Assembly: GCA_003154775.1 (NCBI GenBank)
Contig: PMES01000101.1
Coordinates: forward strand, 1 to 64,000
Direction of reading: 5' to 3'
DNA from: Acidobacteriota bacterium
Lineage (GTDB): Bacteria; Acidobacteriota; Terriglobia; Acidiferrales; UBA7541
DNA length: 64,000 bases
Part shown: piece by piece, positions 7,782 to 21,667 of the stretch
Layout of the letters: the number at the start of each line of letters is the position of its first letter
Numbering within the stretch: position 1 is the stretch's first letter
Made by a program: the position numbers and the translations under genes
The notes under the pieces: model-generated
The model's database searches: none
What the model was told of the DNA's origin: nothing
What the model saw: the letters and a program-made list of their open reading frames with translations, nothing else

Positions 7782-10700
7782 ATGAAGAAAAACACTGCAA
7801 TCGAGCAACTGCCAGACTTTCCAGCAATCAGACAGATTCAGGGGGCTCTGTGGGGAGTCACCGAGACGCGCGGTGCAGCGGTGCTGATCGGGGCCGGATT
7901 CAGTCGCAATGCAGTGCTCCCGGCACCTAATTCTCCCAAACCGCCACTTTGGACTGATTTCTTCCGGATCATGAAAGAACGCCTGTACCCAGGTTCGCGA
8001 GAAAAAGACACGACATCTGATCCCCTCCGGCTTGCGGAGGAATACAAGGCCGCATTAGGGCCAGCAGCGCTAGAGACCCTTATCTACGAGCTCGTTCGAG
8101 ATAAGGAATGGAGGCCAGGTCCACTTCACCGCAAGCTTGTGCATCTCCCATGGACAGATATCCTGACCACGAACTGGGACACGCTTTTGGAGAGTGCGGC
8201 AGACGTTACCGACAGGGAAGAGACATATGACACCGTAAGAACGATTGCCGACATACCTCGCACGCGCTCTCCCCGGATCGTGAAGTTGCACGGTAGTATG
8301 CCATCAAACCCTCCATTCATCTTTACTGAAGAGGACTACAGGACTTTTCCGAGGAATTTCGCCCCGTTTGTCAATCTAGTCCAGCAAGTTCTGATGGAAA
8401 ACGAACTCTGTCTCGTGGGATTTTCTGGAGACGATCCGAACTTCCTTCAGTGGTCAGGCTGGATACGAGATCAACTCGGTGACTCTGCGCGCCGTATTTA
8501 TCTTGTCGGGGTTTTGAATCTGTCCCCTGCGCACAGGAAATATTTGGAAGCGAGGAAGGTCACGCCGATTGATTTTGCGCCCATCGTTGACGAGGCAGAT
8601 GGTGAGGATTGGCACAACGTGGCTTCTGGTTTGTTCTTGGACTTCCTGCTCAACTCAAAGCCAAAGGCTGCCTCACAGTGGTTGTCGAACACGGGGTCAA
8701 TTCGGTCGCAACAGTTGCTCGGGATGTCGCTAAACCGGACTGAGAGCGCAGGGCTGGTAGGGAGTTTCAAGGAACTTGTCACTGCTTGGCAAAAGGAACG
8801 CGAGTCCTATGCCGGCTGGCTGGTATGTCCATCGGGGGACCGAACTCGCATCAGGTCTGAGATCGGTAACCCTGAATACGTCTTCAGGCAGGTGCACGAG
8901 CATCTCCAAGCTCCCGAGCGAGCCACAGCCTTGTACGAAATTCTGTGGCGTCTTGATTTAGCATTTGTGCCCCCGTCCGTCTGGTTCCGCGGAGTATTGA
9001 CCGAACTCGTCGAAGACTCCTCTTCTATTGTGAAAAAGCGGCAACGCTTTGAAATCGCTTTGATTCTCCTGCGTATCGCACGCGAGGAACGGGACCGTTC
9101 CTTGTTTGAACGCTGGGTTATATTTCTCAAAACGAATACCAGCTCTGACAAGGATGTCGTTGCAGCGATTGCCTATGAGGAGAGTCTGTGGGCTCGCGAT
9201 CATTTAGACTATTCGGCACTTGAGAAGCTAGTGCCTACTATCACTGGGGAAGATCCGGCATGGAAGATAAGGCGCGCGGCTCTCCACTATGAATTGGGTG
9301 AGTCCGACAAAGCCGCGAAACTAATTACTGAAGTACTTCAAGAAATCCGCGAGCGCTACGTTCGGGACCGCAAGTCGATTTGGAACATTTCTCGGCTTGG
9401 GTGGGCTCTGTTTCTCGCTCGTGGTGCCAGACTTAACTCCGTCCAGCCGGAGAATGACGAACCACTCATTGCCTCTAATGAGTGGCCAGACTATTTTGTC
9501 AGGAATAAGTGTCTGTCTTGGGATGAGCTGGCCGAATTAGATCGCCAAATCAGCGAGGAATTTCGGGAGACGACAGAAGGCACACAATCCGAAAGCGCAC
9601 TTTTTGAACCAGGCGCTTATACAACCACTGTGCGGTTTTCGAGTTCGTTAGGCAGGGCGATGAACGACACTGTACGGGTTGCAGACACAATTGGCCTGCC
9701 GACAATGGCCGGATCAGTTGATGTGATGCGTTCCCGTTTTTCCCGAGCAGTTGAGTTATCAAGCAGCTATGACGAAGCCGCGTTCTTGCGCACGATCCGA
9801 ATTCTGAAAGGGCCTTCGGACAAACTGATTGAAAAAGTGTTCGGTCGTGTCCAAGTGGCTCGTATACCCTACGCTACTGCACAGAGATTGATCGACGTTT
9901 TGTGGACAGCGATCAACTTTGGACGGATGCGGTTTCCCAGCCCGAGCAGTTTCCTCCAGCCTGGTTTCAATGAGTTTTGGGTTGACCGTTTACGAGTTCT
10001 AGTTGAGGTCCTCTCTCGTTTGGTTGTTAGACTCGATGGTGAGCAGGCCATCGCGGCATTTCGTAAGGCTGTTTCTCTTGCTCATGCTCCGGACTGGAGA
10101 TATTGGGCGCTGTTTGAACCACTCGGGAATCTGTTAAACCGCGCTCTCTTGGCGACTCCGCCTCGCGAGCGTCAAGGACTGCTCCTGGAGATCCTGAATC
10201 TGCCTCTTCCAGATGAGCGGGGCATCCAAGGACAGACTGGCGGCCCACTGGATGAATGGCCCGAAGTGATGGCTCGCTTTCCGGGCAGAATAAGAGGTCG
10301 CGGTTCCGATGAGGCTGGATTTACAGCACGAGTGGCTGTCCTACTTTCGAAACTGATCTGTGGCGATCCACTAACTCGAGGACGAGCAGCGATTCGCCTT
10401 GGCTATTTGCAACGAATGGGTTCACTGACTCCCGAGGAAGGTATCTCATTTGGGAAAGCCGTGTGGTCGAAGCGAGAGTCTGCTTCGGCTTTTCCGCAAC
10501 ACATTAGTTTACTTGCACACGTGCTGTTCGACATTCCGGGGCACGACAAGAGTGATTTGACGCGACTCTTCAGGAGTAATGTTGTCGCCAAGACTTTGTC
10601 CGGTCTCGTCAGCCCCGATCCAATTACGGAAATTGTCGGCGCGACCCGCGCGCGAAGTGATGGATCAAGAGCATTTGAATTAACCAGCGATGAAGCACTC

Positions 10701-11423
10701 AAGCTTTTCGATCTAATCCTGGTCTGGCAGCCCCGTCCCGTCACAATAGACCTTGACCGCCACAACGCCAAAATGACAGACGTCTTTGGCCTCGCACTGG
10801 CGGAGTCAATTTTTCCGGTTGTAGATCTCAAACACTTGGGACAAGACAGAATTGAAAAACTATTCAACAGAGTTGAGGCAGGAACATTGAATTCTGCCCT
10901 CATCGCCCTTGCCGATATCGTCCGATTGGATGGATCTCGGGAGAATAGGGCTGTCGAATTACTTCATCGGGCGATTTTCAGTCGTGAACGGGATGCCGTC
11001 GTTTACAGCCTCAGTGGCATTAATCGTTGGCGAATTCGTTCAAGAGAAGGCTCACTTGGAAAGATACCTCAGCGATTGAAGCAAGCTGCAATCACACTTG
11101 CTGTTGGGGCAAGAGAGCCTTGGTTGTCTTCGGCTTTATACCTCGCAGGCAAGTTCGTGGAAGATGGTGACGTCAGTGATGGCGACAGGCAAGAGTTGCT
11201 AGTTGTACTCGACAAGTTGAGAACCGAGACGGCATACACATCTTGGGAAACGAGCGACCCGCGGACTATCAATATCACTCACGTCCGTGCGCAATGTGTG
11301 AGGCTGGCAGAACAATTGCGGCAGGCTGGTGTGGTTCATGGCGCGATTGCATTTTGGATCGACCGCTCCATGGATGATCCGATGCCAGAAGTGAGATATG
11401 CCCTTGCCGATCTGGAAGAATAG
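7782..11423 (+). CDS. SIR2-like domain protein with long C-terminal region (defence-associated sirtuin-like)
   Basis: N-terminus has GAGFSRNA, TTNWDTLLE, VKLHGSMP, GFSGDDPNF; ~900-aa helical C-terminal region; 1213 aa. Confidence 0.8.
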   Translation: MKKNTAIEQLPDFPAIRQIQGALWGVTETRGAAVLIGAGFSRNAVLPAPNSPKPPLWTDFFRIMKERLYPGSREKDTTSDPLRLAEEYKAALGPAALETLIYELVRDKEWRPGPLHRKLVHLPWTDILTTNWDTLLESAADVTDREETYDTVRTIADIPRTRSPRIVKLHGSMPSNPPFIFTEEDYRTFPRNFAPFVNLVQQVLMENELCLVGFSGDDPNFLQWSGWIRDQLGDSARRIYLVGVLNLSPAHRKYLEARKVTPIDFAPIVDEADGEDWHNVASGLFLDFLLNSKPKAASQWLSNTGSIRSQQLLGMSLNRTESAGLVGSFKELVTAWQKERESYAGWLVCPSGDRTRIRSEIGNPEYVFRQVHEHLQAPERATALYEILWRLDLAFVPPSVWFRGVLTELVEDSSSIVKKRQRFEIALILLRIAREERDRSLFERWVIFLKTNTSSDKDVVAAIAYEESLWARDHLDYSALEKLVPTITGEDPAWKIRRAALHYELGESDKAAKLITEVLQEIRERYVRDRKSIWNISRLGWALFLARGARLNSVQPENDEPLIASNEWPDYFVRNKCLSWDELAELDRQISEEFRETTEGTQSESALFEPGAYTTTVRFSSSLGRAMNDTVRVADTIGLPTMAGSVDVMRSRFSRAVELSSSYDEAAFLRTIRILKGPSDKLIEKVFGRVQVARIPYATAQRLIDVLWTAINFGRMRFPSPSSFLQPGFNEFWVDRLRVLVEVLSRLVVRLDGEQAIAAFRKAVSLAHAPDWRYWALFEPLGNLLNRALLATPPRERQGLLLEILNLPLPDERGIQGQTGGPLDEWPEVMARFPGRIRGRGSDEAGFTARVAVLLSKLICGDPLTRGRAAIRLGYLQRMGSLTPEEGISFGKAVWSKRESASAFPQHISLLAHVLFDIPGHDKSDLTRLFRSNVVAKTLSGLVSPDPITEIVGATRARSDGSRAFELTSDEALKLFDLILVWQPRPVTIDLDRHNAKMTDVFGLALAESIFPVVDLKHLGQDRIEKLFNRVEAGTLNSALIALADIVRLDGSRENRAVELLHRAIFSRERDAVVYSLSGINRWRIRSREGSLGKIPQRLKQAAITLAVGAREPWLSSALYLAGKFVEDGDVSDGDRQELLVVLDKLRTETAYTSWETSDPRTINITHVRAQCVRLAEQLRQAGVVHGAIAFWIDRSMDDPMPEVRYALADLEE

Positions 11424-11735: not shown

Positions 11736-12656
11736 ATGGCTAGCGTCTACGAAATCGTCACTGAGAAAATTATCAAGCAGCTTGAATCCGGCGTGGCTCC
11801 CTGGCGCAAGCCCTGGACCTGTCAGATTCCCGCAAACCTGCTCACGCAAAAAGAGTATCGCGGCCTCAATGTCTTTACTCTCGCCTCGCAGGGGTTTCCA
11901 TCGCGATTCTGGCTTACCTTCAATCAGGCAACGAAGCTTGGCGGAAGGATTCGCAAGGGCGAGAAGTCTTCCCCCGTCATCTTCTGGAACGTTGGCGAAG
12001 AGCGAGAGATGACCACGCAAGACAGCAAGAAAGAGACTTCGCGGCCTTTTCTGCTCCGTTATTACAGCGTCTTCAATTTCTCGCAGACGGAAGGCATCGA
12101 CATCCCCGCTTCCCTTCTGCAGGAGGCCCGCACCAACGATCCGATTGCAGCGTGCGAGCAGATTGTGGCGAACATGCCGAATCCACCAGCGTTCCAGCAA
12201 TCCGACAAAGCATGGTACTCACCCAGCAGAGACGTGGTCGGTATGCCAGCACGCGGCCTCTTTCATTCATCGGAAGAATTTTACGCCACCGAATTCTACG
12301 AATTGGGTCACAGCAGTGGACACCCAAAGCGCCTGCACCGGGAGAACTTTGATAACCCGGCTCATTTTGGCTCTGAATCCTACTCGAAAGAGGAACTCAT
12401 CGCGGAGATGACCGCTGCCATGCTGTGCGGCGTTGCGGGAATCGAACAGAAGACGATTGAAAACTCCGCCGCCTATCTCAAGACGTGGATTGCACGGATC
12501 AAGTCCGATTCGCGGTTGCTTGTCTCCGCCGCTTCGCAGGCCCAGAAAGCCGCCGATTTCGTCCAAGGCAAAATTGCGCATCAGGAAGGCGAATGGGAAC
12601 TCGTGGGCGTAGGTGACACCAAACGCAATCCTACCCTCACTAATACACTCACTTAG
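11736..12656 (+). CDS. ArdC-like antirestriction / zincin-like domain protein, metal motif altered
   Basis: MASVYEIVTEKIIKQLESGVAPWRKPW ... FYATEFYELGHSSGHPKRL ... SYSKEELIAEM; typical ArdC N-terminal and metallopeptidase regions. Confidence 0.85.
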   Translation: MASVYEIVTEKIIKQLESGVAPWRKPWTCQIPANLLTQKEYRGLNVFTLASQGFPSRFWLTFNQATKLGGRIRKGEKSSPVIFWNVGEEREMTTQDSKKETSRPFLLRYYSVFNFSQTEGIDIPASLLQEARTNDPIAACEQIVANMPNPPAFQQSDKAWYSPSRDVVGMPARGLFHSSEEFYATEFYELGHSSGHPKRLHRENFDNPAHFGSESYSKEELIAEMTAAMLCGVAGIEQKTIENSAAYLKTWIARIKSDSRLLVSAASQAQKAADFVQGKIAHQEGEWELVGVGDTKRNPTLTNTLT

Positions 12657-12708: not shown

Positions 12709-12960
12709 ATGGCAAGTCACTTCCCCGGAACTTTTCAGATCGACCAAGAGCTTCCGAATCCATTCCCGGCCAACACCGGGACACGCACGCTCTATATCCG
12801 CCAGCCGAAATTCCCCGAGTTGGGCGTGAATGGCTCACAAGACCATTTCTGCCTTCGCCCCTTTGTTTCGCCCCTCGACCATGTGAGCGCGGGAGCCAAA
12901 GTCATCATCGAACGAGACTCGCGGCCCGTGGCGATCCTTGGTGCAACTCAAAGACTTTAA
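12709..12960 (+). CDS. small protein ending in a Phd/YefM-like antitoxin segment (possible fragment)
   Basis: C-terminal HVSAGAKVIIERDSRPVAIL resembles the Phd/YefM core; short and isolated. Confidence 0.35.
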   Translation: MASHFPGTFQIDQELPNPFPANTGTRTLYIRQPKFPELGVNGSQDHFCLRPFVSPLDHVSAGAKVIIERDSRPVAILGATQRL

Positions 12961-13131
12961 CTATCTCCTCCCAGACTGTGCGGCCCTGAAAGCTCTCTTT
13001 CACTGGTACGCCTGCAACACGCATCGAATCAACACCGTGTAGATGCCGAATAACTTCTTGCAATTCTTCGATATAGTTCATAGGCTTTGCCTTGGTAGAT
13101 AGTTAAACGTCCAGATAACAGGAGGATTCCA

Positions 13132-14445: not shown

Positions 14446-14712
14446 ATGCAACACGTTACTCTTGCTCTTCCTGACGAACTCTCAGCAGCGCTTGCTGCTC
14501 CCGGTCAAGATTTGTCCCGCGCCGCCTTCGAGGCCCTGGCTCTGGCGGCCTATCGCGAACGCAAAATTTCGGCTGCCCAACTACGACAGTTGCTAGGCTA
14601 CGAAACCCGCATCGAGGTTGATGCCTTTCTGAAGAACCATGGCGTCGAACTGGAATACGCGATGGAAGACCTTGAGCGGGATCGCGAGACGCACCGGCGA
14701 CTTGGCCTGTAG
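14446..14712 (+). CDS. UPF0175 family antitoxin
   Basis: ALPDELSAAL...SRAAFEALALAAYRERKISAAQLRQLLGYETRIEVDAFLKNHGVELEY. Confidence 0.85.
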   Translation: MQHVTLALPDELSAALAAPGQDLSRAAFEALALAAYRERKISAAQLRQLLGYETRIEVDAFLKNHGVELEYAMEDLERDRETHRRLGL

Positions 14713-15246
14713 ATGCAATCGATTGTAGCTGACACAACTCCCCTAAACTATCTCGTACTCATCCAAGCAGCCGAGATTCTTCCGAACCTATATAGAAAGG
14801 TTTTGATCCCTCCCGCTGTGAAGGCCGAACTGGCCCATGCAAACACGCCACATATCGTGCGCTCGTGGATTTCACAGGCCCCCTCATGGTTGGAAGTGGT
14901 GAACCTGAAGCAGCCCGTCGATTCGGCTCTATCACATCTGGACGCTGGCGAACGCGAAGCGATATCGCTTGCGTCCGAACTCCAAGCTAGCCTTTTGCTG
15001 ATGGACGAACGAGACGGAGTGGCTATGGCCCGCCACCGCGGATTGACGGTGATCGGCACGCTCGCTGCGCTGGACCTTGCTGCAGTCCGTGGACTCATTG
15101 ACTTGCTGACGATGTTCGACCGGTTGCGCGCGACCACGTTTCGATCACCACTTCGCCTCATGGTTAGCATGCTGGAGCAGGATGCCGAACGCAAGAAACG
15201 TCAAGAAGGCGGGCCCGAATATGGTGGGCCTTCTAACGCCGGTTGA
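14713..15246 (+). CDS. PIN-domain toxin (DUF3368-like)
   Basis: VADTTPLNYLVLI, DAGEREAISLA, LLLMDERDG acidic motifs; starts immediately after the antitoxin stop. Confidence 0.85.
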   Translation: MQSIVADTTPLNYLVLIQAAEILPNLYRKVLIPPAVKAELAHANTPHIVRSWISQAPSWLEVVNLKQPVDSALSHLDAGEREAISLASELQASLLLMDERDGVAMARHRGLTVIGTLAALDLAAVRGLIDLLTMFDRLRATTFRSPLRLMVSMLEQDAERKKRQEGGPEYGGPSNAG

Positions 15247-15320
15247 GCTGCGCCAATTTGCCCCTCTGCGGAGAGCGTCTCTCTCTAGCCCTTCGTATGC
15301 CCCGCTCCTTTCGGCGACGC

Positions 15321-15512
15321 CGCACTTGTGTGCGTGCGACGCTAAGGGCGCGTCGTTTCTAGTACAGAGCTACCAACCGTAGGACAGCAGTTTTCCAAAC
15401 GTTGCTAAGGGACTTTGGTCCCCTCGCTGGTCCACACGACTGGCTTGGAGACGCTTTCACTAGGTAGGCCGTGAGCTTTTCACGGTAAACCTCCTAGCGG
15501 GAAGTGTCCCGC
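15321..15512. ncRNA. candidate structured RNA: six consecutive hairpins
   Basis: CGCAC-TTGT-GTGCG (15321-15334); CGACGC..GCGTCG (15337-15355); AGCAGTTT-TCC-AAAC(GT)TGCT (15386-15406); GGGAC-TTTG-GTCCC (15409-15422); CTAGGtAGG-CCGTGA..TCACGG-taaa-CCTCCTAG (15460-15497); GCGGGA-AGTG-TCCCGC (15497-15512). Confidence 0.6.
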
Positions 15513-15771
15513 TTCGCCATTGGGCAGAAGCCGCAGGAAAGCTTGAGATGTTTCGCGGAATTCGCTTATCGCATCAGTCAAAGAAGCGGTTGGAATCGAA
15601 TTGCTCCGGAGTAAGCCTTTTGCTCTTGAATCGCTGCAATTCCGAACGGGCCACTTTAAGGACCTCGCGCTTCTCCACGCTTACACTCTCCTCCCTGATC
15701 ATTAGTCGACACCGACACCTAGGTCAGTAGTCAAATTCTGCGCTTGAGCCGTTTGAGCAACACACTCGCTC

Positions 15772-17645: not shown

Positions 17646-18671
17646 ATGCGCATTTACATGGATGAATCGGGAAATTTTACTGCGGATCAGTTGATCTCAG
17701 TCGTACTCGTGCTCGCTATTCCTTCGACGAACGAAAGCGAACTCTTTTCCGAGTTTTCGCGTGTTACAGCAAGCTGGCCAAAGCAAGACGGAGAAATTAA
17801 AGGCAGCAGTCTCGACGAATCGAAGGCCGCTGAGATAATTGCCTTGCTTTCGCGATTCGAGGTTATCGCGGACTTCTGTTGCATCGATATGGCCAACCAT
17901 GCGTCCGCCGATATCGAAGACTTCAAAGAACGTCAGGCAAAGGCAGTCGTCGCAAACCTCTCACCATCGAACCACGCGGATATGATTAAACAATTGAATG
18001 ATACTGCGGCGGCAATTCGCCGGATGCCAAACCAATTATTTGTGCAGGCTGTGCTAACGATCAATTTAGTTTTCGAGACCGTTCAGGTCGCCACAATGTA
18101 TTACTCTCAACGGTTGCCGAAGGAACTTGGAGACATTGCGTGGGTAATCGACGGCAAGGATCATAAGCCGACCGAAATGGAGGACATTTGGAGCTTGCTC
18201 GTTGTTCCGTTCGCCGAGAGTCATTTCATAAAAACGCCGCTCATTATGTTAGTGGAGGGCGACTACTCGGACTTTGATCGCCGCTACAAAAGCGATAGTG
18301 ATGCGGAGTTGATGTCTCATCGTAAGTGGTTAGAAACAACGTATTCGATCCCCGCGCGATCTCGCGCGAATCCGGTCACGGATCCGAAGTTGCTCTTGAC
18401 CGAACAGCTCGAATTCACGGACTCAAAACGCCATGTGGGACTTCAGCTTGCAGACATGCTCGCGAACATTGTTCGGAGGGCATTGAACAACATGCTTCTG
18501 CAAACTGGCTGGGAAGATTTGGGCAAAGTGCTCGTTGAAAAGAAATGGAAGGACAACTCTTGGTTTCAACGAATCGGCAACAGCCGAGGCCACGTGCTCC
18601 CCTCGAATCACGTCGTCAGGGTAGCCGAAATTCTTAAAAGCAAAGCGAAGCCGATGCAGCATCAAAAGTAG
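17646..18671 (+). CDS. DUF3800 domain protein
   Basis: N-terminal IYMDESGNF and C-terminal HVGLQLADMLANIV typical of DUF3800. Confidence 0.8.
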   Translation: MRIYMDESGNFTADQLISVVLVLAIPSTNESELFSEFSRVTASWPKQDGEIKGSSLDESKAAEIIALLSRFEVIADFCCIDMANHASADIEDFKERQAKAVVANLSPSNHADMIKQLNDTAAAIRRMPNQLFVQAVLTINLVFETVQVATMYYSQRLPKELGDIAWVIDGKDHKPTEMEDIWSLLVVPFAESHFIKTPLIMLVEGDYSDFDRRYKSDSDAELMSHRKWLETTYSIPARSRANPVTDPKLLLTEQLEFTDSKRHVGLQLADMLANIVRRALNNMLLQTGWEDLGKVLVEKKWKDNSWFQRIGNSRGHVLPSNHVVRVAEILKSKAKPMQHQK

Positions 18672-20491: not shown

Positions 20492-21667
20492 TCAGTTAGC
20501 GTCCTTCGGCGGTTGGTCCACTTTTCTCCTGCTTGAGACGAGGTGTGTGAGAAATGACAGCATTTGTGTTGTGACGCACTTGCTCAACGCCATAATCTCT
20601 TTGCGCGTCAGAGTCTGGCCGGATGAAAAACCAAGCGTTTTAATGCATTTCTTCCAAGCCTGTTCGACAACCTTTCTCTGTTCTCTGCCAAAAGACATGG
20701 ACTGTCCAATTGCCAACGCTTTCTGAAAAGCTTCCACCATGTTCGCTGCATAATCCTCCTCGTTCGAACAAGCGCAGCGGACCTCCTCTTCACTCAGAGA
20801 GAGGTTAAGGTCAAGATCCAACTCTTGACCGCTGGTCGGGTCAATCGCGTAGTAGTTGAAGAGAGGAGTGCCCGTCCAGCGATCCGACAGGCACGCAACC
20901 ATTCGATATACACCAAAGAACTCGACATAGCCAATCAGCCTTCGAGACGAGGAGTCTCCCTTGATCGCTACGCAATGAAAGACTCTGTCCGTAGGCCTAC
21001 TGCTCACAAGATCGCGTTTGTAGAAGTAGCCGAAGCAGGGCTCTCCATCATTATTCCTAAGGTAGCTCGTAGCCACTTCGCAGGCCTGCGCCTCGATTCC
21101 CGAAGCAACCGCCAAGGCGAGAGCGGACTTGACGACACATCGTCCAGATTGCGCGCCACCAAAGTTGCACACCGTTCTCACGGGCTCTGACAGGTAGCTG
21201 CGTTCCTCTACCACGGTCCGCATTGCTTCATCAACGTCGAGCTTTGGGTACCGGCGCTTGAAGCCAAGCATCAGCTTCTTAGCTTCGTGTTTCGTTGGTA
21301 CCCGCGCCTTGATTTCTGCGGTTGAACCATATTCCGCAACCTTAGGCCGAGCGCTTGCTAGGGTGAGGTGCCCATCGGAATGTATTCTAACGGCTTGACC
21401 TGACTCTGTTACGAAGTCCCCCGCTCGCACCGTGCCACGTTCTCTTCGTATCGCGAAGAGCAAACACAAGAAGTTGAGCTGCTCCGCAGCGACGGCATCC
21501 CACTTTTCTCCGGCCCTACTGTTACAGTCTCTGCAAAGAAAACCACGAACCCGTCTTCTTCCTCCGATCCCGTTCGGGACAATATGTTCCCGAGAGTCAT
21601 TATCCCGTGTTATCTCGATGTCGCACAAAGCACAATTTGGGCCGCTCATCTGGTGCCCTTTCATCAT
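20492..21667 (-). CDS. HNH-type endonuclease domain protein
   Basis: CALCDIEITRDNDSREHIVPNGIGGRRRVRGFLCRDCNSRAG (CxxC..EHI..GIGG..CxxCN). Confidence 0.7.
   Translation of the reverse strand: MMKGHQMSGPNCALCDIEITRDNDSREHIVPNGIGGRRRVRGFLCRDCNSRAGEKWDAVAAEQLNFLCLLFAIRRERGTVRAGDFVTESGQAVRIHSDGHLTLASARPKVAEYGSTAEIKARVPTKHEAKKLMLGFKRRYPKLDVDEAMRTVVEERSYLSEPVRTVCNFGGAQSGRCVVKSALALAVASGIEAQACEVATSYLRNNDGEPCFGYFYKRDLVSSRPTDRVFHCVAIKGDSSSRRLIGYVEFFGVYRMVACLSDRWTGTPLFNYYAIDPTSGQELDLDLNLSLSEEEVRCACSNEEDYAANMVEAFQKALAIGQSMSFGREQRKVVEQAWKKCIKTLGFSSGQTLTRKEIMALSKCVTTQMLSFLTHLVSSRRKVDQPPKDAN

Follow-up and report, generated by a model that had tools for sequence, protein, structure and literature searches.

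HEARO RNAs are located in the 5' UTR of IscB genes; the Rfam model RF02033 matches only 65% of these UTRs (PMC9755519). Among the structured RNA motifs known from Acidobacteria are Acido-1 and Acido-Lenti-1 (RF01686 and RF01687), both of which are held in Rfam (PMC2864571). Here we describe a hairpin-rich intergenic gap in an acidobacterial contig (PMES01000101.1), the first 64,000 nucleotides of which were analysed as a whole (hereafter, the window). The original prediction had placed a candidate structured non-coding RNA in this gap, at 15260-15545, and had suggested that it might be an orphan guide-type (HEARO/omega-RNA-like) element. We find that the gap holds a real copy of a structured RNA, and that this copy lies on the minus strand.

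Position and folding of the element

The dense stem-loops that had been predicted for 15260-15545 are present and exceed chance on both strands, more strongly on the minus strand. For the interval 15247-15560, the minus-strand fold gave z = -4.39, with none of 100 dinucleotide shuffles as good, and the plus-strand fold gave z = -2.87 (2 of 100 shuffles as good). When the element was redrawn to 15203-15521, the corresponding values were z = -3.89 (0 of 100) and z = -2.18 (3 of 100). The conserved RNA is that of the minus strand, which the original prediction had left unspecified. Its 5' end falls inside the interval first proposed, but its 3' end passes the low boundary by about 60 bases, to about 15200, giving the window copy a length of roughly 320 bases. 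The accompanying statement that no open reading frame overlaps the element was not quite right, in that the final codons of a PIN gene (14713-15246, plus strand) lie across the 3' hairpin (15242-15200). The features of the window copy are as follows.

15200-15521, minus strand: whole RNA element, 5' end at 15521 and 3' end at about 15200 (covariance-model match 15521-15371 plus homologous 3' hairpin 15242-15200)
15441-15519, minus strand: helix P1 (15519-15516 with 15444-15441), closing the branched 5' domain; 68% of cells paired, the weakest 5' helix
15498-15511, minus strand: hairpin P0, GCGGGA-CACT-UCCCGC (15511-15508 with 15501-15498); 87.5% of cells paired, two of four pairs changed on both sides
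15458-15499, minus strand: helix P2, CGCUAGG/CCUAGUG (15499-15493 with 15464-15458), containing the first half of AGGAGG
15490-15495, minus strand: Shine-Dalgarno-like AGGAGG, with a GTG start at 15483-15481
15469-15485, minus strand: hairpin P3, CCGUGA/UCACGG; 94% of cells paired, three of six pairs changed on both sides
15379-15435, minus strand: helix P4 (15435-15426 with 15389-15379); 93% paired, six of ten pairs compensatory
15393-15411, minus strand: inner hairpin P4b (15411-15407 with 15397-15393); 69% paired
15243-15370, minus strand: middle domain, strongly folded in each copy and poorly alignable across copies
15200-15242, minus strand: 3' terminal motif CCGGCGUUA and hairpin (15237-15228 with 15210-15201), assigned by homology to other copies

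Homologous copies

A DNA search of 61 genomes returned the first two homologues, one from the same genus (G019) and one from another family (G057), both of which match the minus strand of the window. Across 85,462 species genomes, the exact core pattern was found on two contigs only, QHYH01000087.1 (G019) and the newly found QHZK01000371.1 (G551), each from an acidobacterial MAG. When 399 genomes of the class were searched with a covariance model built from four copies, 10 of them gave matches, 11 in all (E 5e-32 to 3e-6); besides the window copy, these are 10 further copies in nine other acidobacterial genomes. With a second model, made from 10 sequences, the fetched loci scored 98-150 bits, except for the 5'-degenerate copy of G018, at 53. 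A sample of 396 genomes from the phylum yielded the window copy only, a count that is a lower bound (seven candidates were scored per genome). Occurrence is scattered among soil Acidobacteria, usually at one copy per genome; G057 is host to two copies, and G018 and G019 have one orthologous chromosomal copy in common.

Covariance-model matches in G048 and G056 were discarded as false, being located within a long coding frame. Phages, plasmids and viral contigs yielded no believable copy: matches to the first pattern in two viral contigs did not extend to the surrounding element and were counted as chance, and both further pattern scans of viral contigs and searches of plasmids and phages were empty. 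A description of the motif was not found in the open-licence literature, where absence is weak evidence.

Covariation and the ends of the RNA

In an alignment of ten copies, 15-17 pairs had changed on both sides, a count reached by none of 500 shuffles. The fold that places P0 and P2/P3 inside P1, and P4 with P4b after it, had 82.7% of cells paired, 17 double-changed pairs and a covariation score of 0.260; none of these three values was equalled by the 500 shuffles, and pairing fell to 32-48% in controls with slid partners. Because the structure was chosen from these same sequences, the paired percentage is biased in its favour, and the compensatory counts are the better evidence. P4 is the best-supported helix (six of ten pairs compensatory), and P2 is maintained in the second G057 copy by the compensatory pairing CGUAAGG/CCUUAUG. 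An alternative, P1b, in which the far side becomes the partner of the 5' strand of P0, fares slightly less well, P0 alone giving better covariation; it is possible that the two form in turn, as a two-state switch. The compensatory base-pair changes that mark a structured non-coding RNA family are present. Folding excess and covariation, whose joint absence had been named as grounds for dropping the candidate, were both found, and covariation across 10 copies strongly supports the proposal of a structured RNA.

Downstream of this 5' part, the copies have in common a terminal motif, CCGNCGUUAAGGGGC, with a hairpin. A pattern describing this 3' hairpin matched three times in 299 genomes, each time at a known copy and about 260-310 nt from its 5' end, while control matches were zero. 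From the position of the hairpin we take the RNA to be about 295-390 nt long, and to run from 15521 to 15200 in the window.

Promoter and micro-ORF

A -10-like box is located at -5 to -8, just upstream of P1, in every one of the nine copies whose 5' end is intact; in seven it has the extended form TGNTANNAT. No such box was found in the window copy, by consensus scan, or in the 5'-degenerate G018 copy. Comparison of the copies shows the family, its strand, its helices, its 3' hairpin and the promoter box of the other copies. With no gene common to the flanks, the element looks like a stand-alone RNA gene; its transcription, stand-alone action and ribosome coupling we infer.

In the other copies, a short frame, for example MKKFTGYLVQESRRQ in G701, begins with ATG, GTG or TTG (CTG in G529) at the usual distance from an AGGAGG-type site. 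This micro-ORF was open in three of the first four copies, and a 12-nt deletion common to two copies preserves its frame. Compared with the other copies, the window copy has lost 1 nt here; the frameshifted ORF reads MKSSRPT before a stop. Coding selection on the micro-ORF was not detected: frame-0 similarity was 2.04 versus 2.22 in another frame, 305 of 2000 permutations were as good, and substitutions were spread about equally over the three codon positions. Pairing in P2 and P3 can account for the local sequence conservation, save for the unpaired second half of AGGAGG. Translation of the micro-ORF is possible; given that coding selection was not seen, a coupling to ribosomes may be wrong.

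State of the window copy

The window copy has lost the -10 box and the frame of the micro-ORF, and its 3' hairpin also forms the final codons of the PIN gene. In the PIN protein, the best PADLOC profile covers residues 1-159 of 177, and the last 18 or so coincide with the hairpin. On the simplest reading, the PIN gene runs into what is probably an inactive relic. This reading rests on absent features, and pairing in the window P4 is still good. Within P4, 15434/15380 is U-A in the window against C-G in the other copies, and this compensated pair suggests that the window copy was under constraint for some time. The earlier proposal of a stand-alone copy or remnant is probably right for this copy, except that it would be a relic of another RNA family than the one suggested.

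Known RNA families

The proposal of an orphan guide RNA, whether HEARO/omega-RNA or TnpB-associated, found no support beyond the size and dense structure of the element, and we regard it as very improbable. Rfam 15 returned nothing at the gathering threshold in the window, and 15150-15750 had no match even at E <= 5, to HEARO, which Rfam contains, or to any other family. At eight homologous loci searched at E <= 10, the only matches were a neighbouring tRNA, which alone exceeded the cut-off, and chance matches off the element. IscB (PF14239) was found in none of the 10 host genomes, although the control genomes of the tool also gave none and its sensitivity is unproven; TnpB (PF07282), for which the controls worked, was absent from six of the 10. 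The original prediction had seen no IscB or TnpB ORF next to the window element; no gene resembling either was recognised beside any copy. Further, P1 is paired and partly conserved from its first bases and does not look like a free, variable 5' guide; where a guide RNA would have one variable end, both ends of this RNA carry conserved motifs.

Two other candidates were rejected. ARAGORN found no tRNA-like domain at any copy or in the window, arguing against tmRNA or another tRNA-like RNA. Several Rfam-type RNA motifs carry the DUF3800 name, and a DUF3800 gene lies 2 kb from the window element; a link of that type was discarded, there being no Rfam match and no DUF3800 gene recognised near the other copies.

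Genomic context

The flanks differ at all loci except the orthologous G018/G019 pair, with no kind of downstream gene in common, and several copies are followed by a gene on the opposite strand. Both copies in G057 begin about 20 nt after a transposase gene, the two transposases belonging to unrelated families (IS1-type and IS1595-type). Elsewhere, a SIR2-domain gene adjoins the copy in G008, and a DUF2971 gene and a PDC-S31-type gene that in G701; the window flanks contain genes for a Dsr2-like SIR2 protein, ArdC, a UPF0175/PIN pair, DUF3800 and HNH. The proximity of defence-candidate genes to three copies is a lead only, made without a background control. No terminal inverted repeats were found around transposase and RNA in G057, so that an element closed by such repeats was rejected, as was the transposase as a constant partner, related transposases in G498, G529 and G455 having no adjacent RNA.

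Several neighbouring genes were noted in their own right. Most of the 1213-aa SIR2-domain protein encoded at 7782-11423 (plus) is covered by the Dsr2 profile of PADLOC (E 5e-147), and the protein is likely a DSR2-type anti-phage NADase. The same defence-rich island contains an ArdC-type antirestriction gene (11736-12656, plus; ArdcN and a zincin-like domain), a UPF0175 antitoxin-like gene followed by the PIN/DUF3368-like gene (14446-15246, plus; PADLOC PDC-S70), a DUF3800 gene (17646-18671, plus) and an HNH_5 gene (20492-21667, minus). IS1-type transposase genes about 48-71% identical to that of G057 occur at loci L047-L050 and L052 (in G057, G455, G529 and G498); they resemble one another in a TTGACA-like promoter region and are followed by short cargo of varied kinds. 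Some 100-130 nt beyond the transposase gene of L049, a TATAAT box precedes a tRNA-like sequence, GGAGAGTG...GGTTCAAGTCC...CACTCTCC, on which ARAGORN makes no call. A small ORF of the window (12905-13081, minus), for which no Pfam match was found, and one after a G498 transposase (L054) are alike by eye, with VPVKExFQGxTVWE.

Proposed function and alternatives

The reading that we favour, tentatively and at somewhat less than even confidence, is a stand-alone acidobacterial structured RNA gene, most likely regulatory and possibly dual-function, with a ribosome-responsive fold, of which the window copy would be an inactive relic. In working copies, RNA polymerase would begin at the base of helix P1, just past a -10 promoter that is often of the extended form. 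The transcript, of about 295-390 nt, would fold into a branched domain at its 5' end, where P0 and P2/P3 lie within P1, then into P4/P4b, and would finish in a terminal hairpin. Because P2 pairs half of AGGAGG and P3 contains the micro-ORF start codon, ribosome entry and RNA folding should be mutually exclusive, and the RNA would most likely serve as a regulator, possibly with a dual function, whose fold responds to ribosome loading. We count in favour of a stand-alone gene the 11 copies in 10 genomes, the covariation, the family-specific 3' hairpin, the -10 boxes, the unshared flanks, the AGGAGG and start codon at normal spacing, and the defects of the window copy.

That the RNA is instead cargo or a functional part of a mobile element, travelling with transposases or in defence islands, would explain its position about 20 nt past transposase genes of two unrelated families in G057, its scattered, mostly single-copy occurrence, and its proximity to the SIR2 (G008) and PDC-S31-type (G701) genes and, in the window island, to the Dsr2-like and PDC-S70 PIN genes. 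We nonetheless consider this rather unlikely: the terminal inverted repeats are missing, related transposases in three genomes stand without the RNA, searches of phages, plasmids and viral contigs found no copies, G018 and G019 have an orthologous chromosomal copy in common, and the defence link is without a background control. The burial of the ribosome-binding site, start codon and micro-ORF in P2/P3, and the possible exchange between P0 and the outer P1b pairing, are also what would be expected of a cis-acting attenuator, with the micro-ORF as a leader peptide whose translation switches hairpins that control a downstream gene. Such a gene may be merely hard to recognise, which would make the RNA cis-acting; however, the absence of a common downstream gene kind, the opposite orientation of the next gene in several copies, the conserved hairpin that closes the RNA and the lack of coding selection leave an attenuator distinctly improbable. 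We give a similarly low probability to a new class of acidobacterial RNA of mobile or defence islands, whose fold would be switched by ribosome entry at the micro-ORF and which would act in trans on host or phage functions. Finally, the micro-ORF, open in three of the first four copies, could suggest that conservation reflects coding sequence or chance hairpins rather than RNA, but compensatory changes exceeding all shuffles, a fold better than shuffles and the missing coding signal make this scarcely credible. The stand-alone RNA gene remains our preferred reading.

Comparison with known systems

This analysis adds a covariation-supported RNA family without an Rfam match, together with a working covariance model, to the poorly charted RNA biology of the Acidobacteria. 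The clear promoter and ends of the other copies make the family testable by transcriptomics, and the locus illustrates that a hairpin-rich gap should not be called an orphan guide RNA before a test for the partner nuclease. The family resembles Yfr6 and the Downstream-peptide motif, with their RNA of about 250 nt and internal short ORF; that ORF, however, shows synonymous changes and indels of three (PMC2864571), whereas coding selection was not seen here. Like Acido-1 and Acido-Lenti-1, it is an acidobacterial structured RNA not bound to one downstream gene; unlike it, those motifs are present in Rfam, and they match no copy tested. With HEARO/omega-RNA (RF02033) it has in common a large, densely folded RNA in accessory DNA and a sporadic distribution, but it differs in that neither a sequence or structure match nor a host IscB was found, and in having its own promoter and conserved motifs at both ends.
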